From Pseudomonadota bacterium (GTDB taxonomy: Bacteria > Pseudomonadota > Gammaproteobacteria > Xanthomonadales > Xanthomonadaceae): DNA of 64,000 nt. Made by a program: the position numbers and the translations under genes. Location: assembly GCA_021821195.1 (NCBI GenBank), contig JAKACT010000001.1, positions 496,001 through 560,000 on the forward strand, written 5' to 3'. Below are positions 39,829-61,629 of this stretch, in pieces (position 1 is the first letter of the stretch; each line of letters starts with the position of its first letter). Below the pieces are notes generated by a model that did not search any database, was not told the DNA's origin, and worked only from the letters and a program-made list of their open reading frames with translations.

Positions 39829-39872
39829 CGCAAGATTGCAAAGAGTGGAACAACGACCTGATCGCTGAAACT
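39829..39872 (+). promoter_or_regulatory. Island promoter, site 1 (palindrome + -10)
   Basis: Palindrome CGCAAGATTGCA at 39829-39840, then exactly 26 bases, then the -10-like hexamer GAAACT at 39867-39872. The predicted start of transcription is near 39879, 31 bases before a 26-codon frame. It lies in the 523-base stretch 39638-40160, which otherwise holds only small frames and two more copies of this element. Confidence 0.6.
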
Positions 39873-39909
39873 GACGCTGACGAATTCAACTTCGCACGAC
39901 GGCGGGACC

Positions 39910-39990
39910 ATGCTGTTCAACAACTACGGAAGCGCTCTCGGCACATGGATGTGCCCTTGCTCCAGCGCGGTAATTCGCCGACAGCGCTGA
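39910..39990 (+). CDS. Possible 26-residue small protein
   Basis: Frame MLFNNYGSALGTWMCPCSS and onwards, 26 residues, with two cysteines (CPC) and a basic tail. The only support is that its ATG lies 75 bases from the centre of promoter site 1, the same spacing as for two other island genes. The ribosome site is weak (GGGA). The transcript could instead be non-coding. Confidence 0.25.
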   Translation: MLFNNYGSALGTWMCPCSSAVIRRQR

Positions 39991-39998
39991 CCACTCCG

Positions 39999-40042
39999 CG
40001 CAAAGTTGCAAACCGTTCCTGCGCCATTCAACTCCGCATGCT
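39999..40042 (+). promoter_or_regulatory. Island promoter, site 2
   Basis: Palindrome CGCAAAGTTGCA at 39999-40010, 26 bases, then CATGCT at 40037-40042. Second of three tandem copies ahead of the glycine-zipper gene. Confidence 0.55.
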
Positions 40043-40065
40043 GTCCGGCCTGAATCACCCGGCCC

Positions 40066-40164
40066 ATGCGCGGCCCACACCGCAAGTTTGCGAGTCGCGG
40101 CTCGCCGCTTTTGCTGCCGAAAATAACCGCACACATTCGATCCCAGACGAGGAACACACCATGA
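40066..40164 (+). CDS. Possible 32-residue leader frame
   Basis: A basic 32-residue frame that ends by overlapping the next start codon (ATGA at 40161-40164), which would couple translation. It spans promoter site 3. There is no recognisable homology and it may be a chance frame. Confidence 0.18.
   Translation: MRGPHRKFASRGSPLLLPKITAHIRSQTRNTP
40081..40124 (+). promoter_or_regulatory. Island promoter, site 3, for the glycine-zipper gene
   Basis: Palindrome CGCAAGTTTGCG at 40081-40092, 26 bases, then GAAAAT at 40119-40124. Transcription would begin near 40131, 30 bases before the ATG at 40161. Confidence 0.65.
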
Positions 40165-40487
40165 GCAAGCAGATCAAGAATTCCACCGTGGCCGGCGGCG
40201 TGGGCGCTGTAGCCACCACCGGCACTGCGATGGCCACCGCCTCTGCCGTTTCCGGCGCCTCGGCGGCCGGGATCATGTCGGCAACTGCCGGCAGCACCGG
40301 TGCCGCGCTCGCAAGCCTGGCCGGTGCATCCGGAACCGCCGGTGGTGCGGCCGTTGCCTCGGGCATGGCCACCATCGGATCCGCCGTGGGGGGTGGCATG
40401 GCCGCCGGCGCCATTATCACCGCCGCTGCGCCCGTGGCAGCTTTGGCGGCGATCGGCTGGGGGCTGTTCAAGTTTTTCGAGGATTGA
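40161..40487 (+). CDS. Ala/Gly-rich glycine-zipper membrane protein
   Basis: 108 residues from the ATG at 40161 with GAGGA upstream. Almost the whole protein is small residues (Ala, Gly, Ser, Thr) in GxxxG/GxxxA repeats (GGVGAVATTG, GTAGGAAVASG, VGGGMAAGAI). It ends with a hydrophobic helix PVAALAAIGWGLFKFFED. No signal peptide is visible. Such composition is typical of oligomerising membrane peptides, bacteriocin-like peptides and some holins. First of three small genes in a row; all functions unknown. Confidence 0.7.
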   Translation: MSKQIKNSTVAGGVGAVATTGTAMATASAVSGASAAGIMSATAGSTGAALASLAGASGTAGGAAVASGMATIGSAVGGGMAAGAIITAAAPVAALAAIGWGLFKFFED

Positions 40488-40570
40488 GGTAACGCTCCGA
40501 TATCGGATGCACAACCAGCCGAGGTCAGTTCTCTTTCTGCCCCCTCCTCTTCGTTCACAAGGAAAACTCC

Positions 40571-40903
40571 ATGAGCCGCCAACACAACAAGCGCAACCGC
40601 AATCTGGAACCGGTCATCTTTGAGTCGACCCACGAAGCGCTGGACACGGAGCAGGGCGAACTGCTGCTGACGCAACTGCGGGAGCGCCTGCTCCGGGAAC
40701 CCGTGGTGTCCGAGCGCGCGGAGGAATGGATCTACTCCCGCGAGGCCAGCGCCGACCTGCGGCAGTACCATTCCGGCGAACAAATCGGCTACTACCGAGG
40801 GCACGAAGCCGGCTTCGCCAAGGGTGCCGCCGTCACTGCACTGGCAACGCTGGGTACAGTGTTGCTCGGCGGCTTGACGTTGTACTTCAAGTACAAGGAC
40901 TGA
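40571..40903 (+). CDS. Small tail-anchored protein
   Basis: 110 residues, AAGGAAAA upstream of the ATG. A charged, helical cytoplasmic part (residues 1-78; EQGELLLTQLRERLLREP, YHSGEQIGYYRGHEAGF) is followed by one C-terminal transmembrane helix (AAVTALATLGTVLLGGLTLYF) and KYKD, so the protein is probably C-tail-anchored in the inner membrane. It lies between the glycine-zipper gene and a zinc-ribbon gene. I do not recognise it. Confidence 0.6.
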   Translation: MSRQHNKRNRNLEPVIFESTHEALDTEQGELLLTQLRERLLREPVVSERAEEWIYSREASADLRQYHSGEQIGYYRGHEAGFAKGAAVTALATLGTVLLGGLTLYFKYKD

Positions 40904-43042: not shown

Positions 43043-45820
43043 TCAGAACCCGACCTTGACGCCTGCGGTGGCGTAGGCATTGCTGCGCTGGCCGGTGCCG
43101 CGCTCGGTGCCTGCGGTGACGTACACGATCCAACCCTGCGCGGTGCGGTAGAAGGCATGGCCGCCGACGCGGAAGCTGTCATTGCCCAGCGGCTGGCCCA
43201 TCACGTCGAACGACGCACCCGGAGCGCCGGCGAAGGCGGCGGTGAAGCCGGTATCCGCGCCACCCAGCAGACGACGGGCCGACACGTCGCCGCCGATTAC
43301 CCACTGGCCGATGCTGCGGTCGAAGCGCAGGCCCAGCTCCGCGAAGGTCGCGGTCAGGCTGTCCTTGCCAGCGGTCAGGCCGAAGCCCTCGCCGCCCGCC
43401 TCGGAGAAGCCGCCCTGCGAGTGGCGCAGCGCGGTCACGGCAGCGTAGGGGGACAGGCCGCTCGCCAGCTCCCAGCCGGCCTCGATACGCGCCTGCACGG
43501 CGGTATCGGTGCGCTTGCCGGTCACATCGCTGGCGCTGGCGCCAACCACCACGATGCGGTTCACATCCACGCTGTTGCGGTCGATGGACACGTTGCCGGC
43601 GACATAGCCCGCATCGCCCGTCTGCGCGCGGCCGTAAGCGGCCAGCGTGGTGCCGGTGCCCTCGAAACGACCGCCCAGCCCGTCCAGGTTCGCGCGGTTG
43701 CGGGTGCCGCCGATGGCAGCGCCCACGACCACGCCGCTGTCCAGCACGGCATCAACGCCGACCATCGCGCCGGTGCTGCTGTAGCGCGCCGCGCTGTAGC
43801 CGTCACGGCGCAGCTTGCCGGTGCTGTCCGACGCCTGCACCCACACGTCTGCGTCACCGAACGCGCCCAGGCTGCGGGTGCGATCCGCCAGCAGCTTGCC
43901 GGCGTTGAGCGCCTGCTGGACAGCCACGGTGCGCGCGGTGCCGTGGACTTCGCCGGTCAGGCTCGCCAGCGAAGCGGACGCCGCCTCCACGGTCGGAGCC
44001 GATGCCAGCTTTCCGGCCATCGCCTTCTCCTGCGCCGTGGCGGTGCCGGCCTGCGCCTTGCCGTCCACGTTGCCGAGGAACACATCAGCCTGCGCGCCGC
44101 CGTTGACCGCCGCCAGCGAAGCGCCAGCAGAGGCAGCGGATGCCGCCACCGAGGCGCGGGTCAGCGCCGCATTGACCTGGGTATCGGTGTAGGCCAGCGC
44201 CGCCGTCCAGAAGAAGCCCGAGCCGTAGGTGACCTTGTTGAACGTGCCGGTGACCTTGCCCGCCGTCAGCAGGGTTTCGGTCGGCTTGGCGGTGTAGTCG
44301 CTGTTCTCCGGCAGCAGTTGCAGGGAGCCGGCGAGCCTGGCGTTGCCGGTGATGGACAGCCCGGTGCCCAGCTGGATCGCCGTGGTGCCCGCGCCGTCCC
44401 AATCCACGGTGTAGTCGCCGGTGATCTTGCCGCCCTTCGAGCCGAAGGTGCCGCCGTTGACGACGACCGAGGAAGCGAGCGAGCCGGTCAGCATCAGGGT
44501 GCCCGCCTCGACGCGGGTGCCGCCGCTGTAGGTGTTGCCGCCCGTCAGGGTCAGCGTGCCGCTGCCGCGCTTGACCAGGCTGCCGGTGCCGGTGATCGCG
44601 TTGGAGAAGGTGCCATTGCCGACGACATTGGCATCGAAGGTGCCGACCAGCTGGCCGGGGCCATGCACGGCCTTCGCGGCATTCAGCAGGCCCCAGCCGA
44701 ACACGGCATCCACGCCGGCATCACCCAGATCGGTAGCGGTGGTCAGGATCGTCTGCTGCACGTTCGACGCGCTCATCCACGGGAACGCCTGCCAGACCAG
44801 CGCAGCCGCGCCGGTGGCGTTGGGCGCAGCGAAGGACGTGCCCTGCCCGCCGCCGCCGCTGAAAGCGGAGTCCGGCACGCCGGGGAAGTAAACGAGGCCC
44901 GGAGCAGCGAGGCACCACGATGCAGCGTTGCCGCAGGCATTGGCGTAGTCGGCCTTGCCGGTGACGTTGCCCTTCGCGTCCAGCGCCACCGCGGTGACGG
45001 CCAGCCAGTTGTTCTTAAAGCTGGCGTCGTAGTGGGGGGCGACGGCGGTGCCGCCCGCTTCGGCGGCGGACTCGTTGCCGGTGGACGCCACGACCAGCGC
45101 GTTGCCGGCGACGGCCTTGCTGCCGACCCAATAGCCGAACGCGCGAGCATTCGCCTCGTTGTCCGAGGTAAAGCCGCCCAGGGAGAAGTTGAACAGGCGC
45201 ACGCCCTGCGCCAGCATCCCGCTCACGGCAAGCCCGGCCTGCCCGTAGTCGCACGAGTCGTTGTAGCAGATGCGGCCCCAATACAGGCTCGCCTCGGGAG
45301 CAACGCCACCCTTGAAGTCACCGCTCGCCTTGCCGGCCAGCACCGTACCGACGACGTTGCCGTGGCCGTCCTTCTTGCTGGGGTCTTTCTCGCCGGCGTG
45401 GCCGGTGTAGTCGATGTACGACGTCACCTGCCCTTCCAGCGGCGCGTATCCGGTGTGCCAGGCGTCATCCAGCAGGCCGACCTTCACGCCCTTGCCGGTG
45501 TAGCCCTCGCTGTGCGCGATGTCGGCATTGGTCGGCACCAGGATGTTGTCGTGCTTGCCGTTGTAGCGGAACAGGCAAGGCAACGCACCGCCGTAGTTGG
45601 TCGCGCCCTTGTCCTCGCACTTCGGCGCCGGATAGGTACAGGGCAGCGGGCCACCGTAGTTCGTCGCCTTGCTGTCCTGACAGGTCTGCGGGGCAGTCGG
45701 CGAAGGCGTCGGTGGGTTGGACGGGCGGACATTGCCGCCGCCACCGCCACCGCAGGCGGACAGGCCGATGGTGGTGGCGATGGCGATGGCGAGCTGGGAA
45801 AGGGGGAGGCGATAGAACAT
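43043..45820 (-). CDS. Serine-protease autotransporter (subtilisin S8 passenger), lipoprotein-type signal
   Basis: 925 residues from the ATG at 45820. Signal ends in a lipobox (LSAC, Cys23), followed by a Gly run and a Pro/Cys-rich linker. The S8 protease domain has Asp118 or 119 (VKVGLLDDAW), His153 (DGHGNVVGTV) and the Ser motif GTSFAAPNATG near residue 350. Then come autotransporter repeat strands (GSLVKRGSGTLTLTGGNTYSGGTRV), and a ~270-residue C-terminal beta-barrel ending AYATAGVKVGF with the terminal Phe needed for BAM insertion. It should display or release a protease at the cell surface. It is read in the same direction as the M50-like gene upstream and sits between CRISPR genes under island promoter site 4. 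Confidence 0.9.
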   Translation of the reverse strand: MFYRLPLSQLAIAIATTIGLSACGGGGGGNVRPSNPPTPSPTAPQTCQDSKATNYGGPLPCTYPAPKCEDKGATNYGGALPCLFRYNGKHDNILVPTNADIAHSEGYTGKGVKVGLLDDAWHTGYAPLEGQVTSYIDYTGHAGEKDPSKKDGHGNVVGTVLAGKASGDFKGGVAPEASLYWGRICYNDSCDYGQAGLAVSGMLAQGVRLFNFSLGGFTSDNEANARAFGYWVGSKAVAGNALVVASTGNESAAEAGGTAVAPHYDASFKNNWLAVTAVALDAKGNVTGKADYANACGNAASWCLAAPGLVYFPGVPDSAFSGGGGQGTSFAAPNATGAAALVWQAFPWMSASNVQQTILTTATDLGDAGVDAVFGWGLLNAAKAVHGPGQLVGTFDANVVGNGTFSNAITGTGSLVKRGSGTLTLTGGNTYSGGTRVEAGTLMLTGSLASSVVVNGGTFGSKGGKITGDYTVDWDGAGTTAIQLGTGLSITGNARLAGSLQLLPENSDYTAKPTETLLTAGKVTGTFNKVTYGSGFFWTAALAYTDTQVNAALTRASVAASAASAGASLAAVNGGAQADVFLGNVDGKAQAGTATAQEKAMAGKLASAPTVEAASASLASLTGEVHGTARTVAVQQALNAGKLLADRTRSLGAFGDADVWVQASDSTGKLRRDGYSAARYSSTGAMVGVDAVLDSGVVVGAAIGGTRNRANLDGLGGRFEGTGTTLAAYGRAQTGDAGYVAGNVSIDRNSVDVNRIVVVGASASDVTGKRTDTAVQARIEAGWELASGLSPYAAVTALRHSQGGFSEAGGEGFGLTAGKDSLTATFAELGLRFDRSIGQWVIGGDVSARRLLGGADTGFTAAFAGAPGASFDVMGQPLGNDSFRVGGHAFYRTAQGWIVYVTAGTERGTGQRSNAYATAGVKVGF

Positions 45821-45903: not shown

Positions 45904-45947
45904 ATGTTGGCTGATGCCGGTGTCTTTGAGGCCGTTGCAAACTTGCA
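45904..45947 (-). promoter_or_regulatory. Island promoter, site 4, for the autotransporter
   Basis: Palindrome TGCAAACTTGCA at 45936-45947. On the minus strand, 26 bases later, is CAACAT (45909-45904). Transcription would start near 45897, 77 bases before the autotransporter ATG. Confidence 0.62.
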
Positions 45948-46539: not shown

Positions 46540-46583
46540 AGTATCCGGCCGCGTTCGTAGCGGACGCCTCTTGCAAGTTTGCA
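46540..46583. promoter_or_regulatory. Island promoter, site 5 (divergent: M50-like gene and cmr side)
   Basis: Palindrome TGCAAGTTTGCA at 46572-46583. On the minus strand GATACT (46545-46540) follows after exactly 26 bases. On the plus strand TAGCCT (46611-46616) follows after 27. It separates the M50-like gene from the small gene at 46672, which precedes cmr1. Confidence 0.65.
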
Positions 46584-46671
46584 GACGAAGGCCGCCCCGA
46601 GCGTCCGCGTAGCCTGTGCTTCCACCGCATCGTCAACGAATCGCGGCACGACCCAAACCACAGGAAATCAC

Positions 46672-46833
46672 ATGTCCAACCCAGCCGACCCGTTCTTCAC
46701 CCGCCAATGGCACAAGCCATACATCAAGTTCCTGCTGTTGAGTGGCGCCCTGCTGATTCTGCTGGTGCCGCCTGCGCACAACCTGACCACAAAAGGGGTA
46801 ACAACCGCTGCCAGCGCGCGATCGACGAACTGA
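46672..46833 (+). CDS. Small single-span membrane protein
   Basis: 53 residues, AGGA upstream of the ATG. One transmembrane helix (about residues 18-35, FLLLSGALLILLVPPAH) between short polar tails. It has no recognisable family. It is the first gene on the plus strand after promoter site 5. Confidence 0.5.
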   Translation: MSNPADPFFTRQWHKPYIKFLLLSGALLILLVPPAHNLTTKGVTTAASARSTN

Positions 46834-47052: not shown

Positions 47053-47203
47053 GGTTGAAGGATCACACCCGTTTGCAGCATTGCTTTTCCTCTTTTTTCA
47101 CTCCCCAGCACCTCCCTGCTTCGCATGCCGCCTCGGATGCGCGCGAAGCTTTGCCTGCATCAGTACCTCCCAACCCTGCCAACGATCATGGAGACGTCTA
47201 GTC

Positions 47204-48790
47204 ATGAGTATCCGCAAGACCCGGCCGGCGCCGGATTTCAACGGCATCGGGGAGGCCGCCGCCGCGATCACACACCGCGAAGGCGACACACTGACCTATG
47301 ACTGCACCCTCGTAACACCGATGTATGGCGGGGGTGTGAAAGCGGGCGAAGTGGATACCCTCATGCCGATCCGCGCTACCGCCATCCGCGGCCAGCTGCG
47401 CTTCTGGTGGCGGTTGCTCAATCGCAAGCGGTTTGCGAACAGCCATGGCCTGTTCGAGGCCGAACGGGCGATCTGGGGTGGGCTCGGCGATGAGACGTCG
47501 CTCGCCAAGAGCAAGGTCCGTGTCAGCGCCGCCGTCAATCCAGGCCAGCAACGAAATCTGCAACCCGCCGCCACCTACACCCAGCGCGACGGGAAGGTGC
47601 GTGGACCAGACTTTGGAAGCTACCCCGGATATGCGCTGTTCCCCGCGCAGGGCAAGAGTGAGCGAGGCCAGATAACCGAAGACCCAAAGCTCCTGCTGAA
47701 AGAAGGCGTGACCTTCAGCCTGAAGCTCCATCTGGATCCGGGACTGGATCCCGACCAGCACGCACAAGTCCTGACCGCTCTGCGATGGTGGGCAAGCTTT
47801 GGCGGCGTGGGCGCACGCACGCGGCGCGGCTGCGGCGCGGTGCAGGTCCTGGATGCAAAGAAACAACTCATCGGGGTCGGCGAACAGGATGTCGCAGCGC
47901 AAGGCTGGCGCCTAGTGCTTTCCGGATCAAACGTCAGTGCAACTGAAGCTTGGGGAAACGCCATCGGGCACTTGCGGGATTTCCGCCAAAAACCCGGCAT
48001 CGCCCGGAACCACGGACAAGGACCGCGCCCCGGCCGCAGTCGCTGGCCGGAGCCGGATGCCATTCGCAGGATCACCGGCGACGCCGCGGAAAACCATCCG
48101 CCCGCGCATCCTGCCGGCAACGTGTTTCCTCGTGCTGCTTTCGGCTTGCCGATCATTACCCACTTCAAACAGGAAAAAGAGTGGCGCCAGAAAGACCCGC
48201 AGGACACAACGCTTAAGCCCATCGCAAAGGGCAGCGACAAGCCGTCGGAGCGCATGGCATCGCCGCTGATCCTGCGCCCTTACTTCGACGGCAAGACTTG
48301 GCGCCCGGCCGTCCTGTGTCTGGACCTGGATCACATCAGGGACATGGGCCTGTCGCTGGAAGGCAAGTTCCGCCGCGCACCGCACATGATCAACGCTGGC
48401 CAATGGCAAGTCGGACCAAAGGCGGACCAGGTCGAGCCGATGCAGGGACGTGGCGAGGATGCCATCGAGGCCTTTCTTTCCTATTTCTCCGACCAAAAAA
48501 AATCAGCCGGTGCCACCGCCAGCAACCCCGCGAAACATCAGGCGCAAACGCGACCCACGGGGGCAACTGGGGTAGCCAACGTGAAACTTCAACTCAATCT
48601 CAAAAACGGCTCGCTGGAAGCCAAGCACATCAAATCCAACAAGTCCTATTACGCGAGAGGCGCTGATGTGGAGCCTTTGATTTCCAGCCTTCCTGGCGCA
48701 ATGCAGAAGGAGTTGCGCGATGGCCGATACGTCTTTTGCGATATCGAAGTCGCCGGCTACGACCTCATTGCAGTGAGGGAAAAAGCATGA
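47204..48790 (+). CDS. cmr1: Type III-B CRISPR protein Cmr1
   Basis: 528 residues from the ATG at 47204. RAMP protein at the top of the Cmr effector. Family signature TYDCTLVTPMYGGG (about 28-41) and PIRATAIRGQLRFWWRLL (about 50-67), which hold the first RAMP fold; a second RAMP-like part lies later (FGGVGARTRRGCGAVQ is the Gly-rich loop). It binds the 3' end of the crRNA:target. It is longer than archaeal Cmr1 by an extra C-terminal half. First of six genes with overlapping junctions (ATGA into cmr2). Confidence 0.93.
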   Translation: MSIRKTRPAPDFNGIGEAAAAITHREGDTLTYDCTLVTPMYGGGVKAGEVDTLMPIRATAIRGQLRFWWRLLNRKRFANSHGLFEAERAIWGGLGDETSLAKSKVRVSAAVNPGQQRNLQPAATYTQRDGKVRGPDFGSYPGYALFPAQGKSERGQITEDPKLLLKEGVTFSLKLHLDPGLDPDQHAQVLTALRWWASFGGVGARTRRGCGAVQVLDAKKQLIGVGEQDVAAQGWRLVLSGSNVSATEAWGNAIGHLRDFRQKPGIARNHGQGPRPGRSRWPEPDAIRRITGDAAENHPPAHPAGNVFPRAAFGLPIITHFKQEKEWRQKDPQDTTLKPIAKGSDKPSERMASPLILRPYFDGKTWRPAVLCLDLDHIRDMGLSLEGKFRRAPHMINAGQWQVGPKADQVEPMQGRGEDAIEAFLSYFSDQKKSAGATASNPAKHQAQTRPTGATGVANVKLQLNLKNGSLEAKHIKSNKSYYARGADVEPLISSLPGAMQKELRDGRYVFCDIEVAGYDLIAVREKA

Positions 48791-50601
48791 CCACCCATCT
48801 CATCGAACTTTCCCTCGGGCCGGTGCAGGGCTTCATTGCCGCTGCCCGCCGCAGCCGCGACCTGTGGGCCGGCAGCCACCTGCTGTCAGAGTGTGCCCGC
48901 GCTGCCGGCAAGGCATTGAAGGACGGAGGCGCTGCCTTGATCTACCCGGTCGAAGACCGCGTTCTCAACGTGAACGACGACGAGAACAGCAACCTGTCCA
49001 ACGTGCTGCTGGCCCGTCTGGAGGGCGATGCCACTGCCGCGCAGGCATTGGCAGCCCACGCCATTGCCGCAGCGCGCACCTATCTTCGCCAGGCTGCCAA
49101 GGACGCGCTACGCGACTGGCAGCAGGCGGGCGTCCAGCTGCGCGACGACCTTTGGGCGCGTCAAGTGGACGATGCGCTGGAGGCCTTCGCCGCCTGGAGC
49201 GTGGTGGAAGACGACTACCGTCGCGCCTACGACAACACCAAGGCCGCGCTAGGTGCACGCAAGAACACCCGCAACTTTGCGCCGATGTTCGAACCCGGCC
49301 ACGATCTGGGCTTCGGCGTCCCCAAGTCCTCACTGGACGGCGTGCGCGAATCTGTACTGCCGAAAAACCGCAAGCGCTTTCCACCAAAGTTCGGAGTTGC
49401 GCCGGGCGAACAGCTCGATGCGTTGGGCTGCATCAAGCGGGTGGTGGGCCGGGGCGAACGTTTCACTGCGCTAACCCGGCTGGCGGCCGATGGCTGGTTG
49501 CAGAACCTGTCTAAGGACGATCCGCAAGCACTTGCCAGCCTGCGAGACGCCTATGCACCGCTGGTGGGCGAAGGCCATGCCACCCGCAGCGAGGGCAACG
49601 CTGGCTGCTACGGGGATTTTCCATTCGATGCAGGCATGCTCTATCCGGAGCGCCTGGAAGCGGCGATCAGCGAAGCCCGGGAAGAAGGTGCCCCAGAGGC
49701 CTTGCAGGCGCTGGATGCGCTGCGGGTGACGTTGCGTCCGCTGTGGAAACAACACGGGGAACCCTGCCCCTACGCGGCCATCGTGGTGGCCGATGGCGAC
49801 CGGATGGGCCGCTTCATCGACAAGGCAAGTACCGCCGAACAGCATTCCGCCGTCTCCCGCGCTATCGCTGCATTTGCCGACAAGGTGCCTGCCATCGCCC
49901 GAGAACACCGCGGCCACTGCGTCTTCAATGGGGGCGAGGATTTGCTGGTGCTGTTCCCGCTGGCTGGCGTGGTTGCAGGTGGCCGCGCCTTGGCAGCAGC
50001 CTTCGACGCGGCCATGGCGGATGTCGTACGCACTCTTCTCGGCGACAACCCCCACCCCGACGACCTGCCCAGCCTGCGGGTGGGCGCGGCCATCTGCCAT
50101 GTACAGGAACCACTGGGGCTGATCCGCCAGTACGGCGATGCGGCGGAAAAATTCGCCAAGGGGCAGGCTGGAAGCAACGGCCAGGGCAATGCGCTGGGCA
50201 TCCAGCTGTACGTGCGCGCCGGCCACGTGGTTCCGTGGCGTGCCCGCTTCGACGCCCCCGAGGACTTCACCCGCCTGCAGGCATGGTGCAGCCGCTACGC
50301 CGACGGATCACTGCCCGGCAAGCTGGCGTACGCCATCCGTCAGGCGTGGCTGACAGGTCTGGCGCAGGGACTGGATGCCGAGATTGTTGCTTTGGAAGTC
50401 AAACGTGCGATCGAACACGCCAGTCAGCGCGGGGGCGCCGACGGCATCGATGCATCGGTGGTGGCGCAACTGCTGGAACGCGGCAAGCGTTGGCAAACCG
50501 AATCCGATCCCACGGGATACGGCGCACTGGTTGACGAACTGGTGCTGGCCCGCTGGCTGTCGGCACGCAGCAGCAAGGACCTGGGTCGCGAGGACGCATG
50601 A
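48787..50601 (+). CDS. cmr2: Cas10/Cmr2, cyclase-type signal synthetase lacking an HD domain
   Basis: 604 residues, clearly shorter than typical Cmr2 (~850-1000). The first palm begins at once (LSLGPVQGFIAAARRSRDLWAGS, residues 8-30), so the usual N-terminal HD DNase domain is missing. The second palm has DGDRMG (336-341) and the metal motif reads GGED (382-385) instead of GGDD; Glu at the first acidic position is the same change found in active GGEEF cyclases, so cyclic oligoadenylate synthesis is likely retained. Large effector subunit; produces the messenger for the CARF/HEPN proteins in this locus. Confidence 0.93.
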   Translation: MTTHLIELSLGPVQGFIAAARRSRDLWAGSHLLSECARAAGKALKDGGAALIYPVEDRVLNVNDDENSNLSNVLLARLEGDATAAQALAAHAIAAARTYLRQAAKDALRDWQQAGVQLRDDLWARQVDDALEAFAAWSVVEDDYRRAYDNTKAALGARKNTRNFAPMFEPGHDLGFGVPKSSLDGVRESVLPKNRKRFPPKFGVAPGEQLDALGCIKRVVGRGERFTALTRLAADGWLQNLSKDDPQALASLRDAYAPLVGEGHATRSEGNAGCYGDFPFDAGMLYPERLEAAISEAREEGAPEALQALDALRVTLRPLWKQHGEPCPYAAIVVADGDRMGRFIDKASTAEQHSAVSRAIAAFADKVPAIAREHRGHCVFNGGEDLLVLFPLAGVVAGGRALAAAFDAAMADVVRTLLGDNPHPDDLPSLRVGAAICHVQEPLGLIRQYGDAAEKFAKGQAGSNGQGNALGIQLYVRAGHVVPWRARFDAPEDFTRLQAWCSRYADGSLPGKLAYAIRQAWLTGLAQGLDAEIVALEVKRAIEHASQRGGADGIDASVVAQLLERGKRWQTESDPTGYGALVDELVLARWLSARSSKDLGREDA

Positions 50602-52648: not shown

Positions 52649-53034
52649 GCGACCGCCAATCCCGTGCCCAGCGGATGGCGAAGCCGGCGCTGGCCTGCGT
52701 GAAGTCCGCCGCCGCGAGCAATCTGGCGAAGGACTACAAGCCGCGCGCCATGGCCTTTCCCACCATGGTGCTGCAGTCCGGACTTGCCCAAGCCGTGGGC
52801 TTCCTCGCCGCCAAAAGCGGCAAGGATGGCAAGGGCAAGGCCTATCAGCAGTACTTCGATGACCTGGCCAAGGTAGCCGGTCTTCCGAACAGCGAGGCGC
52901 TGCTGCAGGATGCATTGAGAGCCGACCTCCCCCGCTACCGCCTGCTGACGCGGGACGTGCTGGATGCCGCCTCCTGGCTCAAACGCTTCTGCCAGAGCCT
53001 GATCAACGACGAGGGCAGCAGAAATGGCGATTGA
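52645..53034 (+). CDS. cmr5: Type III-B CRISPR protein Cmr5
   Basis: 129 residues, small helical subunit. Typical segments QSRAQRMAKPALACVKS and FPTMVLQSGLAQAVGFLAAKSG. It forms the minor filament against Cmr4. It overlaps cmr4 by 4 bases and cmr6 by 11 bases. Confidence 0.9.
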   Translation: MSDRQSRAQRMAKPALACVKSAAASNLAKDYKPRAMAFPTMVLQSGLAQAVGFLAAKSGKDGKGKAYQQYFDDLAKVAGLPNSEALLQDALRADLPRYRLLTRDVLDAASWLKRFCQSLINDEGSRNGD

Positions 53035-53839
53035 ACTCTATCGGGAAGCGCTCAAGCGGGCACAGGGGATTGCAAACGGCACCAAGTTCATCAAGCAACC
53101 CACCGCCAACGCAGGACTGCTGCTGCGTCGTGGACTGACGGTTTACGAGACGGGCAAGACAGAGGGTGACGCCGGCAAGGGCGGTGGCCCCAAGCAGCAG
53201 CTGATCCTGGAAATCGCCAAGACCACGCCATCGGGGATCTACAAGGCTGCCTTCCAGCGCTGGAAGACCGCCACCGCCGGCAATAGCGCGCGCTTCATCC
53301 AGTTCCAGGCCCCGCTGATCGGCCGCCTGTACATCGGCCTGAGCCGGGAGACGGCGCTGGAAACCGGCATCACCGTGCACCACGCCTACGGCATGCCCAT
53401 GATCCCCGGTTCCGCGCTGAAGGGCCTGGCGCGCAGCGTGGCCCGCAACCGGCTTGCCCAACGCCGCGATGCGCTCACCTGGATCTTCGGCAACGAGCAC
53501 GACGTGGAGACGCCCGATGCGCAGGAAACCGGCGCGGTGATCTTCCACGACGCCTGGTGGGTGCCCGAAGGCGATGCCAAGCCCTTCGTCGAGGAGATCG
53601 TCACTCCGCACCATGGTGACTACTACGTCAGCGAAGGCAAGCAGGACGCCACCGACTTCGACAGCCCCATCCCGGCCCCGCAGATCGCCGCGCAAGGCAG
53701 TTTCCTGTTCGTGCTGGAAGGCGATCCCGCCTGGTGCGAGATCGCCCGCACCCTGCTGATGCATGGCCTTTCCGAACGCGGCATCGGCGGGAAAACCACC
53801 TCGGGTTACGGACTGTTCAAGGCCGCCGGCAACAGCTAG
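53024..53839 (+). CDS. cmr6: Type III-B CRISPR protein Cmr6
   Basis: 271 residues, RAMP fold. GMPMIPGSALKGLARSVARN (about residues 122-141) and Gly-rich loop GIGGKTTSGYGLF near the end. It caps the Cmr4 filament with Cmr1. Last gene of the cmr operon. Confidence 0.93.
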   Translation: MAIELYREALKRAQGIANGTKFIKQPTANAGLLLRRGLTVYETGKTEGDAGKGGGPKQQLILEIAKTTPSGIYKAAFQRWKTATAGNSARFIQFQAPLIGRLYIGLSRETALETGITVHHAYGMPMIPGSALKGLARSVARNRLAQRRDALTWIFGNEHDVETPDAQETGAVIFHDAWWVPEGDAKPFVEEIVTPHHGDYYVSEGKQDATDFDSPIPAPQIAAQGSFLFVLEGDPAWCEIARTLLMHGLSERGIGGKTTSGYGLFKAAGNS

Positions 53840-54242: not shown

Positions 54243-54286
54243 TGCAAATTTGCACGGCAGGTCATGCGCGGGCTGTTGAGGACAAT
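54243..54286 (+). promoter_or_regulatory. Island promoter, site 6
   Basis: Palindrome TGCAAATTTGCA at 54243-54254 (fully symmetric), 26 bases, then GACAAT at 54281-54286. The gene at 54334 begins 47 bases later. The minus strand has no -10 at the matching distance. Confidence 0.65.
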
Positions 54287-54333: not shown

Positions 54334-54681
54334 ATGAAAACGCTCGCCGATCTTCCATTCACGCCGGAACAGCTGGCGCGCCTGCGAGAACACGCCGGCA
54401 CTGCGTTGCCGCTGGCCTACGGTTCCCTGCTGCAAGCCTTTGTCCATGCCTGCGCCAGCCTGAGCCCGCATGCCGCCGCGCTGGCGCAGGCCTCCAGCGA
54501 GCAGGCCGCGCTGCTGCCCGGCATCCTGGCGGCCGGCCTGATCCCGGACCAGACCGACGAGCAGGCCGCGCGGGCGTATCTGGACGCGCACATCGAGCGG
54601 ATGCCGGTCTCGCATCCGCTGCTTGCCCGCTACGCGGCGCTGCACGCCATGCGCCTGCAGTTCCTGCCCGCGCGCCATTGA
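54334..54681 (+). CDS. Hypothetical helical protein
   Basis: 115 residues, entirely helical and Ala/Leu-rich (FTPEQLARLREHAGTALPLAYGSLLQAF; AHIERMPVSHPLLARYAALHAMRLQF). No signal peptide, membrane span or known motif. Driven by promoter site 6. Function unknown; its place in the CRISPR regulon is the only clue. Confidence 0.6.
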   Translation: MKTLADLPFTPEQLARLREHAGTALPLAYGSLLQAFVHACASLSPHAAALAQASSEQAALLPGILAAGLIPDQTDEQAARAYLDAHIERMPVSHPLLARYAALHAMRLQFLPARH

Positions 54682-55340: not shown

Positions 55341-57612
55341 GCTTTGATCCCCGATATGCGGGGCAAGCGTTCGACCTTGAGGCGGGCGGCATTCTGGGCC
55401 GCCTGGGCCGGTCTTAATCCCCGATATGCAGGGCAAGCGTTCGAACAGAGCGTCACCTCGCAGGCTGACCGCAGCGGCGGGTCTTAATCCCCGATATGCG
55501 GGGCAAGCGTTCGAACCAAGATCGCAGAGCAACTACGCGGCATTGCGGTCGTCTTAATCCCCGATATGCGGGGAAAGCGTTCGAACAAGGCCCGATCATC
55601 AATCCGCACACGGGCAAGGGTCTTAATCCCCGATATGCGGGGCAAGCGTTCGAACCTCACGCGGGCAACAATTACCCGCAGGGGTACTACGTCTTAATCC
55701 CCGATATGCGGGGCAAGCGTTCGAACGTCACGGGCGAGCGTTGGATCGTATGCGAAACGGTGTCTTAATCCCCGATATGCGGGGCAAGCGTTCGAACAAC
55801 TACAGCAGCTCGCCCTGGACCGAGGCATTCGTCTTAATCCCCGATATGCGGGGCAAGCGTTCGAACCCGACGCGGAATTCGACTTCGACAAGTACTCCAA
55901 GTCTTAATCCCCGATATGCGGGGCAAGCGTTCGAACCCCTTGGTATCGCTGCATCACCGCCTCATTCAGGTCTTAATCCCCGATATGCGGGGCAAGCGTT
56001 CGAACCGCGCAAGGAAAGCGAGAAAGTCGCAACGGTCGGGTCTTAATCCCCGATATGCGGGGCAAGCGTTCGAACGCGGTATTTTCCGCTATTACGTTTT
56101 AAAGGAAATATCTTAATCCCCGATATGCGGGGCAAGCGTTCGAACGAGCGTGGCGGAGCGGGTGGCGCAGTTCCTGTCGGTCTTAATCCCCGATATGCGG
56201 GGCAAGCGTTCGAACTGCTGGGCAACGACGGCAGCTCCACCACCGTCGAGTCTTAATCCCCGATATGCGGGGCAAGCGTTCGAACCCGCCGCCGCTGCCT
56301 GACGGGGTGGCGCCCCCAGTCTTAATCCCCGATATGCGGGGCAAGCGTTCGAACAGTTGAGCCAATCGGGATCGCGCGGCGTGGCGTTGTCTTAATCCCC
56401 GATATGCGGGGCAAGCGTTCGAACGGCGGCTATGAACGGCGCTCGCGCCAACACACTGTCTTAATCCCCGATATGCGGGGCAAGCGTTCGAACCTTTGGA
56501 TTGATGCGAAACACAACAATCACGTCTTGTCTTAATCCCCGATATGCGGGGCAAGCGTCCGAACTTATCAACTTCGTCCTACGCGACGTGGAGGGCTGTC
56601 TTAATCCCCGATATGCGGGGCAAGCGTTCGAACGCTAAGTCTCTGCCGGGATGCGTGCATCTCTGATGTCTTAATCCCCGATATGCGGGGCAAGCGTTCG
56701 AACCATGGAGAGCGTCGTGTTCAATTCGATCAAGAGGTCTTAATCCCCGATATGCGGGGCAAGCGTTCGAACAATACATCCCCGATCCGATGGGTGACAA
56801 CTGATCGTCTTAATCCCCGATATGCGGGGCAAGCGTTCGAACCCCGTGGGACGCCAACAACAACAACCACCGGGTGTCTTAATCCCCGATATGCGGGGCA
56901 AGCGTTCGAACGGCACCAAACAACTCAACCCGCTCACGCGGGAGGTCTTAATCCCCGATATGCGGTGCAAGCGTTCGAACCTTGACGCGATACGAGCTTT
57001 GAGAGCACGAACCGGTCTTAATCCCCGATATGCGGGGCAAGCGTTCGAACCAAGACCAACACTACCCCTCTCAGGGGAAAGGAAGTCTTAATCCCCGATA
57101 TGCGGGGCAAGCGTTCGAACACGCTGTTCCCCAACCAAGCCACTACCCCTATCAGGGGTCTTAATCCCCGATATGCGGGGCAAGCGTTCGAACGGACGTC
57201 GAGACGTGGCTCGAAGAGATGCGCGAGGTCTTAATCCCCGATATGCGGGGCAAGCGTTCGAACCAGTTCTACTATACGCCAGACCCGGACTCTCTGGTCT
57301 TAATCCCCGATATGCGGGGCAAGCGTTCGAACTCCAAGGAGCAGAGATATGAGCATTGCGGTAGTTGTCTTAATCCCCGATATGCGGGGCAAGCGTTAGA
57401 ACAGGATCGGGATGGGAACCCGGTGGGCCGCCAGACCGTCTTAATCCCCGATATGCGGGGCAAGCGTTAGAACGCACGCGGTATCTTTGGATTCTGCGCC
57501 CATGAATAGTCTTAATCCCCGATATGCGGGGCAAGCGTTAGAACCGGAACACCGGCTACTCCGAGCGGTATGCCGCGTCTTAATCCCCGATATGCGGGGC
57601 AAGCGTTAGAAC
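55341..57612 (-). CRISPR. CRISPR array, 33 repeats / 32 spacers, transcribed on the minus strand
   Basis: 36-base repeats spaced by 33-37-base spacers. On the transcribed (minus) strand the repeat runs from GTTCGAACGC through a small hairpin (CCCCG-CATAT-CGGGG) to ATTAAGAC, an 8-base tail like the 5' handle of Cas6-cut crRNA; this fixes the orientation. The left end is old: repeats 1 and 2 (55341, 55411) are degenerate. The right end is new: the last four repeats (57367, 57438, 57509, 57577) share one base change that breaks the GTTCGAAC palindrome. Single variants occur at 55551, 56110, 56529 and 56945. The last repeat ends 2 bases from the cas2 stop codon, leaving no separate leader. Confidence 0.96.
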
Positions 57613-57614
57613 TG

Positions 57615-57992
57615 CTAGGGGTTGGATTCTAGCGGCGAATCAAGCAGTTGCAAGGCCCCTTGCGGTGAATCCGGCACGCCGTAGGTGCCATCGGGTTGCG
57701 GCTGCAACAGGGCGGTCCAGCCGGTCCATGTTTCCGGGCAGCGCGGCTTGCCCAGCGCCACCACGCTGCCGGTTTCGCCGATGGGATAGGCGCGCAGGTC
57801 GTCCACCGGCGCAATCCAGCCGCGGTCCAGCTCGTCCATCAGGTGGGTCATCTCGTCGGTGGTGGCATGCAGCAGGAACAGCGAGTATTGCACCGGCGCG
57901 GCAATCCGCAGCAGACGCCGGTGCAGGCGGGCCAACCGGCGCGGGCACCGCACGTCGTAGGCCAGCAGCCAGGGCAGCCGTCGCTGGCTCAT
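57615..57992 (-). CDS. cas2: Cas2 (array-proximal copy)
   Basis: 125 residues. Ferredoxin-like Cas2: LPWLLAYDVRCPRRLARLHRRLLRIAAPVQYSLFLLHATTDEMTHLMDELDRGW with the conserved YDV Asp, then a ~40-residue extra C-terminus. It forms the Cas1-Cas2 spacer integrase. Its start overlaps the cas1 stop by 4 bases; its stop lies 2 bases from the newest CRISPR repeat, so cas2 and the array must share a transcript unless a promoter lies in the gene. Confidence 0.85.
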   Translation of the reverse strand: MSQRRLPWLLAYDVRCPRRLARLHRRLLRIAAPVQYSLFLLHATTDEMTHLMDELDRGWIAPVDDLRAYPIGETGSVVALGKPRCPETWTGWTALLQPQPDGTYGVPDSPQGALQLLDSPLESNP

Positions 57993-58927
57993 GCCGGCAG
58001 TTCCGGCAGTTGCGCCAGCAACCGGGCGATGCGCTGAGCCAAGCGGCCGTCGGCGCGGCGCAAGACCGGTTCCAGCTGGCCGAAGAACGGGCCGCGGCCC
58101 GCCTTCCCCAGCAGGCAGGCCTGCCCGGTGCGGCCGAAATGGTGCGCCTCCAGCGCGCGGCTGCGGAACAGCTGCACCACCAGCCGCTCCACTGCCGCGC
58201 GTTCGGCCTCCATCAGGTCGCAGGCCAGGCTGGCCCGGCCATGGGCGAGCTCGTGCAGGGCGCCGATGCAGGCATCCAGCCCCGCGCGGTGGGCGGCCTC
58301 CAGCGCGCGCCCGTGCAGCATCGTGAAGCCCAGCGACAGCGCGGCGTTGACGGGGTCGGTGGGCGGCCGCCGGCGGCGGCCGTCAAAGCCCAGTGCGGGT
58401 GCCAGCAGCAGGCGCATGGCGGAGAAATACACGCGCCCGGCCACGCCTTCCAGGCCACGCAGCGAGGGCAGTGCTGGCGCGTCCTGGATGCGCGAGTGCA
58501 GGCGGCGCAGCGCACGCGCGGCGCGCAACAGCGGGTAGCGGAGCGCGGGCGCTTCGCCGGCCCAGCCACGCAAGTTGCGGATCTGCGATCGCAGGCGCAG
58601 CCGCACCACGTGCCGGGCGAAGTCCAGCCGCAGGTCCGCATCCAGCCAGGCGCGGGTCTGGCGCAGGCGGCGACGCGCATCGCCGGCCACCGGTGCCAGC
58701 AATGCGGCGCTGGCGCGGCTGCGGCCCCGGGCGATCACCAGCGGAATGCCGGCGGCAGCCAGCTGGCGCACCAGCTGGACCGACAGCAGCGCGTCGTTTT
58801 CCACGATGACGCGGGCCAACTGCGTCAGCGGCACGCGCTGCAGCACGCCGCCGCCATCGCGCACGCACAAGGCGCCCGCCTCATGGGCCAGGGTGACGCC
58901 CTGGTGGTCAACCAGCAGGGTGTGCAC
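57989..58927 (-). CDS. cas1: Cas1 integrase
   Basis: 312 residues from the GTG at 58927 (VHTLLVDHQGVTLAHEAG). The catalytic metal triad is Glu160 (GLEGVAGRVYF), His225 (GALHELAHG) and Asp237 (LACDLMEAERA), all present. It inserts new spacers with Cas2. Starts 1 base after the stop of the other cas2. Confidence 0.93.
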   Translation of the reverse strand: MHTLLVDHQGVTLAHEAGALCVRDGGGVLQRVPLTQLARVIVENDALLSVQLVRQLAAAGIPLVIARGRSRASAALLAPVAGDARRRLRQTRAWLDADLRLDFARHVVRLRLRSQIRNLRGWAGEAPALRYPLLRAARALRRLHSRIQDAPALPSLRGLEGVAGRVYFSAMRLLLAPALGFDGRRRRPPTDPVNAALSLGFTMLHGRALEAAHRAGLDACIGALHELAHGRASLACDLMEAERAAVERLVVQLFRSRALEAHHFGRTGQACLLGKAGRGPFFGQLEPVLRRADGRLAQRIARLLAQLPELPA

Positions 58928-58928
58928 G

Positions 58929-59210
58929 TCAGCGCACCTGCAGCAGGCCGCCGGCAGCCAGGGCGCGGCCCATGCCGCGGAACATCGGCGGGCGTTGCGG
59001 GTCCATCCGCGCCAGCAGCACGCGGTCGCAGCGCGTATCCACCAGCTGGTCGTAGGTAGCAAGCAGCTGGCCGCGTTCGGACTCGCTCATCCAGCATTCG
59101 TGCACGGACTTCTGCCCGCCGGTGGCATGCCGCCGCGCCAGCCACAGCGCGGCGCGCAGGCGCCTGTGGTCGGCGATGTCATAGCTGGCAACACTCAGGA
59201 TGCGTTGCAT
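58929..59210 (-). CDS. cas2: Second Cas2-like protein (promoter-proximal copy)
   Basis: 93 residues. MQRILSVASYDIADHRRLRAALWLARRHATGGQKSVHECWMSES has the Cas2 pattern (YDI Asp, the Arg-rich first helix, QKSVHEC for the usual QxSVFE strand). It differs widely from the other Cas2, so this is not a recent duplication. It heads the cas2-cas1-cas2-array unit, downstream of promoter site 7. Confidence 0.8.
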   Translation of the reverse strand: MQRILSVASYDIADHRRLRAALWLARRHATGGQKSVHECWMSESERGQLLATYDQLVDTRCDRVLLARMDPQRPPMFRGMGRALAAGGLLQVR

Positions 59211-59274
59211 GGGCACGGCTCCCGCGGCAGTGGGTCCGCCATCCGTGGCGGGGGTTGCAGTCCATGCGGGACGC

Positions 59275-59318
59275 AGCTTGCCTGCGCATTCGCCCGCCCG
59301 CCGATCCGCAAGTTTGCA
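59275..59318. promoter_or_regulatory. Island promoter, site 7 (divergent cas2-cas1-cas2-array / csx2-cas6)
   Basis: Palindrome CGCAAGTTTGCA at 59307-59318. On the minus strand CAAGCT (59280-59275) follows after 26 bases, 65 bases before the cas2 ATG. On the plus strand the match at 26 bases is poor (GGCCAT), so csx2 may use another -10 such as the TTAAAA-containing stretch near 59354. Confidence 0.6.
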
Positions 59319-59388
59319 GGCTGTTTTGCGCTTGCCGGCCGCGGGGCCATCGCTTAAAACGGAACATCGATTTCCGTCTGGATTTGTC

Positions 59389-60600
59389 TTGCACACGCTT
59401 ATCAGCTTCCTGGGAAGTTCGCGCTTCGACCCCGCCACCGGCTACCGCAAGGCGCGCTACCGCTTTCCCGACGGCCACGTGGCCGAAACCCCGTTCATCA
59501 GCCTGGCGCTTGCCCAGCAGCTGCAGCCGGACCGCGTGTTGATCCTGGGCACGCGCGGCAGCATGTGGCCGGCCCTGATCGAGCATGGGTTGCAGGGCAG
59601 CCCCGCCGCCGAAGACCTGCGGCTTCGCCTGATGGAAGCCAGCGAGCAGCAGGCCGTGACCCAGGCCGATCTGGACGCACTGGCGCAAGTGGCACGGGAC
59701 GCGCTGGGGCGTGAGGTCTCGCTGCATCTGATCCCCTACGCGGACAGCGCCGACGGCCAGCGCGAGATCCTGGACTTGATCGCCCGGGAAGTGACGCGGG
59801 GCCGGGTGAGCTTCGATGTCACCCACGGGTTCCGCCACCTGGCGATGCTAGGGATGCTCTCGGCGTTCATGCTCAGCCATGCGCGAAATTTGGAAGTTGA
59901 GGGGCTGTGGTACGGCGCGCTGGACATGACCGACCGCGACAGCGGCCTGACCCCGGTGGTGCGGTTGGACGGCATGCTGGCCACCAAACGCTGGCTGTCG
60001 GCGCTGGTGCGCTTGGATGCCAGCGGCGACTTCTCCGTGTTCGCACCACTATTAAAAGCCGATGGCCTGGAGGCGAATGAGGCGAACCGCCTGACCCGCG
60101 CCTGGGGCCTGCTGATGCAGAACAACGTCGCCGATGCGGTGCGAGAGCTGCAGCCGCTGCAACGCCGTCTGCAAACGCCGCTCGGCGGCACCTCTGAGCT
60201 GTTCCGCGAGACCCTGCGCAAGCGCCTGCGCTGGTGCGAGGCGCGCGATCTGGGTGAGCAGCAGCGCCTGCTGGCCCTGCAGGCCCTGAAACGTGGCGAC
60301 CTGCTTCGCGCCAGCCTGTTGGGGTTCGAGGCCTTCCTGTCCCGTCAGGTGCTGGATCAGGGCGGTAATCCCGCCGTCCACGAAGACAAGGAGCGCGCCC
60401 AAAAAGCGTTCCGCGAGGAATTGCACGCCGGCGACCATGCCGACTGGAAGAAAGACGCCTTCCATCTGTTGAACAACGTGCGCAACGCCTGCGCCCACGG
60501 CACCAGACCGAAGAACCCAAAGCACCAGAAACTCCTGAAGAATCCGGATTTGCTGGCGGATTCGTTGCAGACGGCGTTGGGGCGCTTGAACACGCCGTGA
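59389..60600 (+). CDS. csx2: Csx2/Csx1-type CARF-HEPN ribonuclease (TM1812 family)
   Basis: 403 residues from a TTG at 59389, chosen because the family begins LISFLG at this point; no ATG or GTG lies at a suitable distance from the promoter. The CARF part (~1-205) has SFLGSSRFD, LILGTRGSMW and FDVTHGFRHLAML. The HEPN part ends with the R-x4-H catalytic motif RNACAH (Arg365, His370). Such proteins are nonspecific RNases activated by cyclic oligoadenylate made by Cas10. The stop overlaps the cas6 start (GTGA). Confidence 0.88.
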   Translation: MHTLISFLGSSRFDPATGYRKARYRFPDGHVAETPFISLALAQQLQPDRVLILGTRGSMWPALIEHGLQGSPAAEDLRLRLMEASEQQAVTQADLDALAQVARDALGREVSLHLIPYADSADGQREILDLIAREVTRGRVSFDVTHGFRHLAMLGMLSAFMLSHARNLEVEGLWYGALDMTDRDSGLTPVVRLDGMLATKRWLSALVRLDASGDFSVFAPLLKADGLEANEANRLTRAWGLLMQNNVADAVRELQPLQRRLQTPLGGTSELFRETLRKRLRWCEARDLGEQQRLLALQALKRGDLLRASLLGFEAFLSRQVLDQGGNPAVHEDKERAQKAFREELHAGDHADWKKDAFHLLNNVRNACAHGTRPKNPKHQKLLKNPDLLADSLQTALGRLNTP

Positions 60601-61574
60601 ACTGGTCAGAGCCAGCGCAGGCCAAGCCGGACGCACCGACGCCCGCCGGCGGTGGCCTGCAATTGCATCGCTATCGGCTGCGCTTTGAGGCCAAATCGCC
60701 TGCGAAGGCACCGCTGCCAATGGCGGTGGTGCGGGGCAGCTGGGGCGCTGCGCTGCGACGGATGGCCTGCAGTACGCAGGCGCCAGACTGCGAGAGCTGC
60801 GCGCTGGCCCCGCACTGCGGCTTTCGCGCGGTGTTCGACCCGCTTCCGCCCATCGGGCACGCGCTGGGTGCGCTCTCTTCGGTACCACCGCCGTATGTGC
60901 TGTCGGAACTCGTGCCGGAGGGACGCGGGGGCTGGCTGCATCTGGTCCTGCTGGGTCCGGCGCAGGAGCGTCTGGGGCTGGCCCTGCTGGCCATGGAGCA
61001 GGCCTGCAAGCAGGGCCTGGGGCGCGAGCGCACGCCGTACCGTGTGGTGGTGGCCCAGCACTGGACGTGCGCCGGCTGGCAGCCCCTGCGCAACGATCGT
61101 CCGCCAGCGCCCAGCGTGCAGCTGCTGCCCCGCCCTGCAGACAAGACACAGGCCGCGCCTGCCATGCAGGCCTTGCACATTGCCCTGCACAGCCCGGTCC
61201 GGCTGCAGGACCAGGGCCGGATCATCCGTCCGGAGGATTTCACCCCGCGCCGCTGGTTGATGGCGCTGGTGCGGCGCATCGGCCTGATGGCCGATCTCTA
61301 CGGGCAGCCACTGGAGCTGGACTACCGCGGATTGGCTGAGATGGCCGCGCAGGTGCAGATGTCGCAAGCCAGCCTGGCCTGGGAAGACGATGCGCGCTGG
61401 TCCGGCCGCCAGCAGAAAACTCATCCGATGGGTGGCGTCACCGGTAGCTTCCGCATGGAAGGACCGCTGGCCGCGTTCCAACCCTTGCTGGGCGCTGGCC
61501 AGTGGCTGCACGTGGGCAAGCACGCCGCCTTCGGGCAGGGCCGCTACCGGATCCTGGAATCGACCGCGCAGTGA
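60597..61574 (+). CDS. cas6: Cas6 pre-crRNA endoribonuclease
   Basis: 325 residues, GTG start. RAMP-like Cas6 (PF10040 type): N-terminal LQLHRYRLRFEAKSPAKAP, a cysteine cluster CSTQAPDCESCALAPHCGF common in this branch, middle IALHSPVRLQDQGRII, and the C-terminal Gly-rich loop GQWLHVGKHAAFGQGRYRIL. It should cut the repeat at the base of its hairpin to leave the 8-base ATTAAGAC handle. Confidence 0.85.
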   Translation: MNWSEPAQAKPDAPTPAGGGLQLHRYRLRFEAKSPAKAPLPMAVVRGSWGAALRRMACSTQAPDCESCALAPHCGFRAVFDPLPPIGHALGALSSVPPPYVLSELVPEGRGGWLHLVLLGPAQERLGLALLAMEQACKQGLGRERTPYRVVVAQHWTCAGWQPLRNDRPPAPSVQLLPRPADKTQAAPAMQALHIALHSPVRLQDQGRIIRPEDFTPRRWLMALVRRIGLMADLYGQPLELDYRGLAEMAAQVQMSQASLAWEDDARWSGRQQKTHPMGGVTGSFRMEGPLAAFQPLLGAGQWLHVGKHAAFGQGRYRILESTAQ

Positions 61575-61585
61575 GGTGTGGCGGC

Positions 61586-61629
61586 TGCAAACTTGCAAGC
61601 GCGGCGTTCCTGCAAGAGCCGTCCAGAAT
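61586..61629 (+). promoter_or_regulatory. Island promoter, site 8, for DUF1232-CARF-csx16
   Basis: Palindrome TGCAAACTTGCA at 61586-61597, 26 bases, then CAGAAT at 61624-61629. The ATG at 61667 lies 75 bases from the palindrome centre. Confidence 0.68.

Follow-up and report, generated by a model that had tools for sequence, protein, structure and literature searches.

A palindromic box at a fixed distance from -10-like hexamers in a type III-B CRISPR island, with an NE0113-family CARF protein as its candidate reader

Regulators that join a CARF domain to a winged helix-turn-helix are already known from archaea in the form of Csa3, and direct regulation of transcription has been predicted for both Csa3 and NE0113 in passages of PMC4012209. 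Here we describe a palindrome, YGCAANNTTGCR, that recurs at one distance from -10-like hexamers within a type III-B CRISPR island of a Xanthomonadaceae genome (assembly GCA_021821195.1), carried on a 64,000-nucleotide stretch of contig JAKACT010000001.1 (the window), and we propose as its reader an NE0113-family CARF protein encoded in the same island. This protein belongs to a different family from Csa3, TIGR02584; its boxes are accompanied by a bacterial -10, whereas Csa3 works with archaeal transcription machinery; and neither the box nor the layout of this island was met in the sections of the Csa3 literature at hand. The island protein also resembles BrxR, which, in the portions of PMC9122601 available, likewise pairs a ligand-type domain with a DNA-binding domain, uses inverted-repeat operators and controls defense genes. 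BrxR differs in having a WYL rather than a CARF domain and in being a repressor with its R-BOX1 immediately downstream of the promoter, and no tie to cyclic oligoadenylate was met in those portions (PMC9122601). No WYL domain was matched among the island proteins scanned with Pfam, some small open reading frames (ORFs) lying outside that scan. A further likeness is to the OmpR/PhoB type, to which profile comparison over 38 columns assigns the probable winged helix of the island protein, with a CARF domain where those proteins have a receiver. OmpR-type activators such as PhoB stand in for the -35 element, and sites of the OmpR/PhoB type are direct repeats, whereas the island box is a palindrome. 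As far as a search of the open-licence PMC literature shows, neither the bacterial box nor its layout or regulon has been reported before: no description of a binding site, regulon, ligand or output for NE0113 was found in the titles and abstract openings among the matches listed.

The palindrome occurs nine times in the window, against 0.60 expected, and all nine sites lie between 39829 and 61597, inside the CRISPR island. The whole genome (2,924,910 bp) holds 17 sites, nine of them within 21.8 kb (binomial 1.6e-15, for an interval defined by the sites themselves), while the same pattern read backwards, as a control, has 11 sites genome-wide. One-mismatch palindromes number two in the window, both outside the island, and the CAANNTTG core does not occur between 54245 and 59309, the stretch that holds the CRISPR array. 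The original prediction, which had listed eight palindromes in intergenic DNA, is confirmed at each position given; it had omitted a ninth exact copy, at 49270. Its concern that the palindrome might prove common genome-wide and unenriched here is answered, for this genome, by the same counts.

The eight intergenic copies share one layout, in which a hexamer of the class SANNMT stands exactly 26 bases (N26) past the palindrome in 8/8 cases. The copies in the window are as follows.

39829..39872, + strand: box CGCAAGATTGCA, N26, GAAACT; precedes a small ORF at 39910
39999..40042, + strand: box CGCAAAGTTGCA, N26, CATGCT; without a clear gene start of its own
40081..40124, + strand: box CGCAAGTTTGCG, N26, GAAAAT; 36 nt 5' of the ATG of the 40161 gene
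45904..45947, - strand: box TGCAAGTTTGCA, N26, CAACAT; precedes the autotransporter gene, kept in the related genome G019 as CAGCAT
46540..46583, - strand: box TGCAAACTTGCA, N26, GATACT; 6 nt before the ATG at 46533
46572..46615, + strand: the same box read divergently, N26, TAGCCT; faces small ORFs and the cmr operon
54243..54286, + strand: box TGCAAATTTGCA, N26, GACAAT
59275..59318, - strand: box TGCAAACTTGCG, N26, CAAGCT; 64 nt 5' of a cas2-like gene
61586..61629, + strand: box TGCAAACTTGCA, N26, CAGAAT; likely promoter of the regulator operon
49270..49281, + strand: ninth palindrome, inside the cas10/cmr2 frame; breaks the spacing rule and is probably incidental

With the eight intergenic sites aligned on the palindrome, the A and the T of the hexamer are present in all eight, and '.A...T' stands at offset 26 in 8/8 as against fewer than three sites at every other offset from 0 to 69. 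When either strand and 60 offsets are allowed, chance would place SANNMT at one offset in 8/8 with a probability of about 7e-13 and '.A...T' with one of about 3e-9, the latter being the fairer figure because the SANNMT class was derived from the same eight sites. At the eight palindromes elsewhere in the genome, SANNMT is found at N26 in 0/8 (either strand) and '.A...T' on 1 of 16 strands. The 45936 box also carries AAAGAT on its + strand. The palindrome pattern with its spacing is therefore real in this island and far above chance. All eight hexamers of the original prediction are in place and fit SANNMT; its fixed spacing of 26 is strict in this island, and in other genera it widens to 26 to 28. 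The high local density of the boxes would also suit a small repeat, or a sequence of the nucleoid, partition or uptake type, with no role in transcription, but the fixed distance to the hexamer, the flanking sequence that varies from box to box at the eight window sites and the layout kept in other genera make this explanation scarcely credible. A dispersed repeat was rejected on the unrelated flanks of the boxes; sigma-54 and extracytoplasmic function (ECF) promoters were rejected too, by eye only.

The same arrangement is found in G019, a genome of the same genus whose island is 89% identical over the largest aligned block. It has 13 palindromes, six of them in the island, where the five intergenic copies obey the rule and the one in cmr2 does not. 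At the five promoters common to the window and G019, the core letters are kept in 40/40 cells and the spacer in 102/130; at the autotransporter promoter, identity across the spacer is 9 of 26 letters and its length is unchanged.

The genes that face the boxes, with the regulator operon, are listed below.

40161..40487, + strand: likely target, 108-aa Gly/Ala-rich protein; no NCBIfam or Pfam match
43043..45820, - strand: likely target, subtilase (S8) autotransporter, 925 aa
45985..46533, - strand: likely target, 182-aa protein; weak zincin-peptidase similarity, DUF3267 below the Pfam cut-off
46672..46833, + strand: possible divergent target, 53-aa small ORF ahead of cmr1
47081..53839, + strand: type III-B effector operon (cmr1, cas10/cmr2, cmr3, cmr4 and more RAMP genes)
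54334..54681, + strand: likely target, 115-aa protein; Pfam match sub-threshold only
58929..59210, - strand: likely target, Cas2-like, followed by cas1 (PF09827, 2.7e-6, 27.9 bits, cut-off 23.8)
57989..59062, - strand: likely target, Cas1, in the same operon as the Cas2-like gene
61667..62011, + strand: DUF1232 protein, first gene of the regulator operon
62075..63277, + strand: NE0113-family (TIGR02584/PF09623) CARF protein, proposed regulator; probable C-terminal OmpR-like winged helix
63282..63569, + strand: Csx16 (ring nuclease family), free, next after the regulator gene

Eight promoters had been claimed. Six of them face a gene of at least 90 codons, whereas the boxes at 39829 and 39999 precede only tiny ORFs and may serve the 40161 gene as tandem promoters. 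Three boxes thus lie in 300 bp (39829-40124) ahead of the Gly/Ala-rich gene, in a stretch without a counterpart in the G019 island. The 46572 box is probably a divergent promoter, since TAGCCT at N26 on its + strand is kept in G019, and the cmr effector operon is possibly reached from it. Between the end of GATACT in the 46540 box and the ATG at 46533 there are 6 bases, so that a transcript from this hexamer, if used, would be leaderless. The predicted regulon, joining adaptation, membrane and protease genes with the NE0113 operon, is supported by the sequence tests, and one site with one layout common to the island promoters is backed by enrichment, spacing, the second species and other genera.

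NE0113 genes were found in 8/148 relatives and in 34/369 genomes of the class (30 over the cut-off), the present genome included. Across 38 other NE0113 loci the YGCAANNTTGCR pattern has 11 sites, six of which lie 113-186 nt before the NE0113 match, and 2/6 of these fit strict N26 SANNMT facing the gene. Inspection of the class-level loci gave a wider core, CAARYTTG, mostly CAAGCTTG, which occurs six times in the 84 kb examined here, every time in an island box. This core lies at most 300 nt upstream in 23/39 NE0113 loci versus 61/917 other ORFs (mechanical ORFs of at least 150 codons; Fisher 3e-16), in a set that excludes the window and G019, includes one upstream region of only 98 nt and has positives from 22 genera. 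At 22/24 upstream sites '.A...T' follows 28-30 nt after the core, which equals N26-28 counted from the 12-mer; in other windows of three offsets the average is 2.4 and the maximum 8. Because the core had first been seen in the class-level loci, it was retested on a later draw from the phylum, in which 24/398 genomes had a match and the 25 matches over the cut-off outside the present genome were used, weaker fragments being dropped. Here the core precedes 10/25 NE0113 loci, the ten positives representing seven genera, and the hexamer is present at 9/11 sites (shuffles 0.48, maximum 4); four of the 25 loci belong to the same class, none of them with the core. In-frame start codons fall 4-9 nt after the hexamer at 5/22 NE0113 promoters versus 7% of background positions, which, as at 46540 in the window, fits leaderless transcripts. 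Since core and layout recur together ahead of NE0113 genes in many other bacteria, the core is likely to be an NE0113 binding site, and the case for the NE0113 protein as reader of the box, built on such comparisons, is good but not final.

The core is not confined to the promoters of NE0113 genes. Together the 39 loci hold 102 cores and 78 strand-instances with the hexamer at 28-30, compared with 24 and 3 for the reversed core. By place, core plus '.A...T' is represented by 22 of NE0113's own, 30 inside ORFs of at least 150 codons and 22 further instances, in 13 loci, outside such ORFs; the reversed core plus '.A...T' has two inside and one outside. An NCBIfam scan of 20 of the 49 listed ORFs downstream of boxes (G019 excluded) matched Csm3, Cmr1, Cmr4 (four), Csx1 and a single-strand binding protein, with the end of a Cas10 below the cut-off; nine ORFs were unmatched at 0.01 and two had weak sub-threshold names only. 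Pfam, run on ten of those ORFs, further gave a RAMP match and, below threshold, one to an outer-membrane protein. The boxes at Csm3, Cmr1 and Cas10, like those before cmr4, lie inside ORFs and for that reason are not relied on, and the named ORFs with a box outside long ORFs are only Csx1 (L097) and the single-strand binding and outer-membrane-like proteins (L096). Locus L096 (2182-13407) has 30% G+C and five GACAARCTTGTC boxes, each with a good -10 at 28-29 (TAAAAT, GATAAT or TATAAT). In L070, L084, L135, L142 and L108, AAG CTT encodes a Lys-Leu pair close to the cmr3 end, which gives a box-like core before cmr4; a cmr3 frame analysis covered 29 loci, with the assigned frame wrong for several, and an over-strict search for the cmr3 peptide motif gave three matches.

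The proposed reader (62075-63277) matches TIGR02584 at 225 bits (cut-off 80.65; E 8.4e-67) and PF09623 at 148 bits (cut-off 23), the latter being its only Pfam match above the cut-off, with Csa3_N not among them. A weak Csa3_N match in the island, below the cut-off (19 vs 27 bits), comes from the Csx1-like protein at 59389. A search of the genome contigs with the single NE0113 protein gave one locus. The NCBIfam name of TIGR02584 is 'ring nuclease Csm6'; ring-nuclease activity is putative here, by name only. An AlphaFold model built from an alignment of 50 out of the 120 homologues listed has a mean predicted local distance difference test score (pLDDT) of 89. Its CARF part shows the CARF fold, matching Cad1, Crn1-type ring nucleases and Csa3, and by fold similarity to binders of cyclic tetra-adenylate (cA4) and cyclic hexa-adenylate (cA6) it is a candidate binder of cyclic oligoadenylate. 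The secondary-structure elements of the C-terminal part follow the order of an OmpR-type winged helix. Comparison by hhalign of the 50-member profile with five OmpR-type domains of the same genome (five placed, out of 12 matches) gave a probability of 94 and a score of 46 over 38 columns, while 50 column-shuffled profiles scored at most 15.8. Against a structure bank, the 50-member profile found ArlR and MtrA at E 0.2-1.4, and BaeR could be aligned to the model along both domains, but with a root-mean-square deviation of 14. No family was returned by a Pfam search of the C-terminal part, Trans_reg_C matched 1/50 NE0113 members (E 0.14), and a sequence search of this part against solved structures gave one unrelated match (E 0.55). 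From model and profile, a CARF domain followed by an OmpR-like winged helix is the probable architecture.

We consider it likely that the box is the DNA-binding site of the NE0113 CARF protein, which would be an autoregulated activator answering to cyclic oligoadenylate. An NE0113 dimer would use its C-terminal winged helix to bind the box, at about -50 to -39, and a CARF dimer would suit a palindrome. With cyclic oligoadenylate from the type III complex, it could activate promoters having a weak -35 and could autoregulate, here via the 61586 box of its own operon and in other loci from the promoter of its own gene. When Cmr detects foreign RNA, transcription would then change at eight, perhaps nine, likely promoters, affecting cas2-cas1, the subtilase autotransporter, the peptidase-like protein, small proteins and the regulator-Csx16 operon. 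The site has the layout of a class II-like activator site at a sigma-70 promoter, lying at a fixed distance upstream of the -10 and near the -35 position, and this position (-50 to -39), together with weak -35 and -10 elements, suggests dependence on an activator. Repressors commonly autoregulate, which counts for the opposite proposal, that NE0113 binds the box as a repressor until cyclic oligoadenylate frees it, infection thereby relieving repression of the regulon. BrxR, a WYL regulator of defense islands, is a repressor that binds inverted repeats according to portions of PMC9122601. Here, however, the 12-mer lies upstream of the core promoter (-50 to -39) and not over it, its distance from the hexamer is 26-28 in many genera, and weak hexamers go with a -35 region close to random; a box upstream of the core promoter, at a nearly fixed distance and with weak elements, occupies the place of an activator, and we regard repression as unlikely.

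The ligand of an NE0113 activator is probably cA4, given that the Csx16 gene follows the regulator and that a Card1/Can2-like protein is encoded in the same island: Csx16 is described as a cA4-specific ring nuclease and Can2/Card1 as cA4-activated in sections of PMC12409355 and PMC9704534.

Several results weigh against an NE0113 activator that responds to cyclic oligoadenylate. In the part of PMC8844856 at hand, specific DNA binding by Saccharolobus Csa3 was unchanged by cA4 in vitro, and for Csa3b the same source cites a tenfold increase with an analogue of cA4. The winged helix is a remote similarity, and the C-terminal part modelled alone from a single sequence failed (pLDDT 37). Only the second (phylum) set is a clean test of the core, and two of its ten positives (G744 and G667) are identical in sequence; the core is missing within 300 nt in 16/39 loci of the first set and 15/25 of the second. 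The best -35 match at NE0113 promoters is 2.68 of 6 versus 2.28 when shuffled, slightly better than chance, so that where 'no good -35' was claimed the element is weak rather than proven absent. The boxes before cmr4 are cmr3 coding sequence, in which Lys-Leu is written AAG CTT, and as they lie inside cmr3 they were dropped as regulon members.

Further points bear on which protein reads the box. Ten cmr stretches (156 kb) from eight genomes without detected NE0113 hold 18 cores, eight with the hexamer, and ten further stretches (118 kb) from genomes with NE0113 hold 12 and nine; the reversed core gives six and one without NE0113, four and none with it. A core lies within 400 nt of cmr4 in 1/10 in each group, and core density fails to separate the two. 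Boxes with the hexamer also occur in G156, G336 and, weakly, G418, where the TIGR02584 profile detects no NE0113; G156 and G418 share a genus and between them have three boxes of the cmr3 coding type. The three genomes are drafts, so that absence of NE0113 is uncertain, but they are still a real exception. These boxes and the similar core numbers would be expected if another protein, chromosomal or a second island regulator, read the box and NE0113 were one of its targets. That proposal has to contend with a core that accompanies NE0113 genes across 22 class genera and seven more in the phylum set, and with cores that all lack the hexamer in G193, G458 and G379 (one or two each, no NE0113 detected) and in G221 (two), G412 having one doubtful match. 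The only other DNA-binding regulator in the island scans is AlpA, some small ORFs being unexamined. We judge a different reader improbable. The NE0113 gene of G221 (L131, about 3797-4483), on the same stretch as its cmr locus, is internally deleted, with the CARF and C-terminal pieces in one frame.

The island adjoins tRNA-Asn (38110-38186), with an integrase at 38450-39637. The 84 kb examined hold no repeat of the tRNA-Asn 3' end and so did not show where the island ends on the far side. Its remaining features are as follows.

41104-42900, - strand: Csx16-Card1/Can2-like fusion
55342..57615: CRISPR array, 32 repeats
59389-60600: Csx1-type protein
60597-61574: Cas6
63674-63865: AlpA

In the fusion, Csx16 (ring nuclease family) stands at the N-terminus of a Card1/Can2-like CARF nuclease, perhaps making a self-limiting effector. 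The cas1 gene is flanked by two Cas2-like ORFs, 57615-57992 (-) and 58929-59210 (-), with Pfam CRISPR_Cas2 E values of 5e-8 and 2.7e-6.

The box supplies the 2014 prediction on NE0113 with a definite operator, a regulon and a straightforward test of binding. We give roughly even chances to the wider proposal of a phylum-wide transcriptional arm of type III systems, in which NE0113 would sense the alarm nucleotide of Cas10, bind boxes of the CAAGCTTG type placed 26-28 bases upstream of the -10 and turn on a regulon that amplifies itself and in this island takes in a secreted protease, small proteins of unknown family and the genes for spacer acquisition. If so, infection would be answered by new gene expression besides nucleases, and scanning for boxes would be a route to new type III accessory genes, such as those of the single-strand binding protein and the weak outer-membrane match in L096. 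If the alarm nucleotide controls the box, bacterial type III immunity would gain a gene-expression phase that is tied to spacer acquisition and that also reaches unstudied secreted and membrane proteins.

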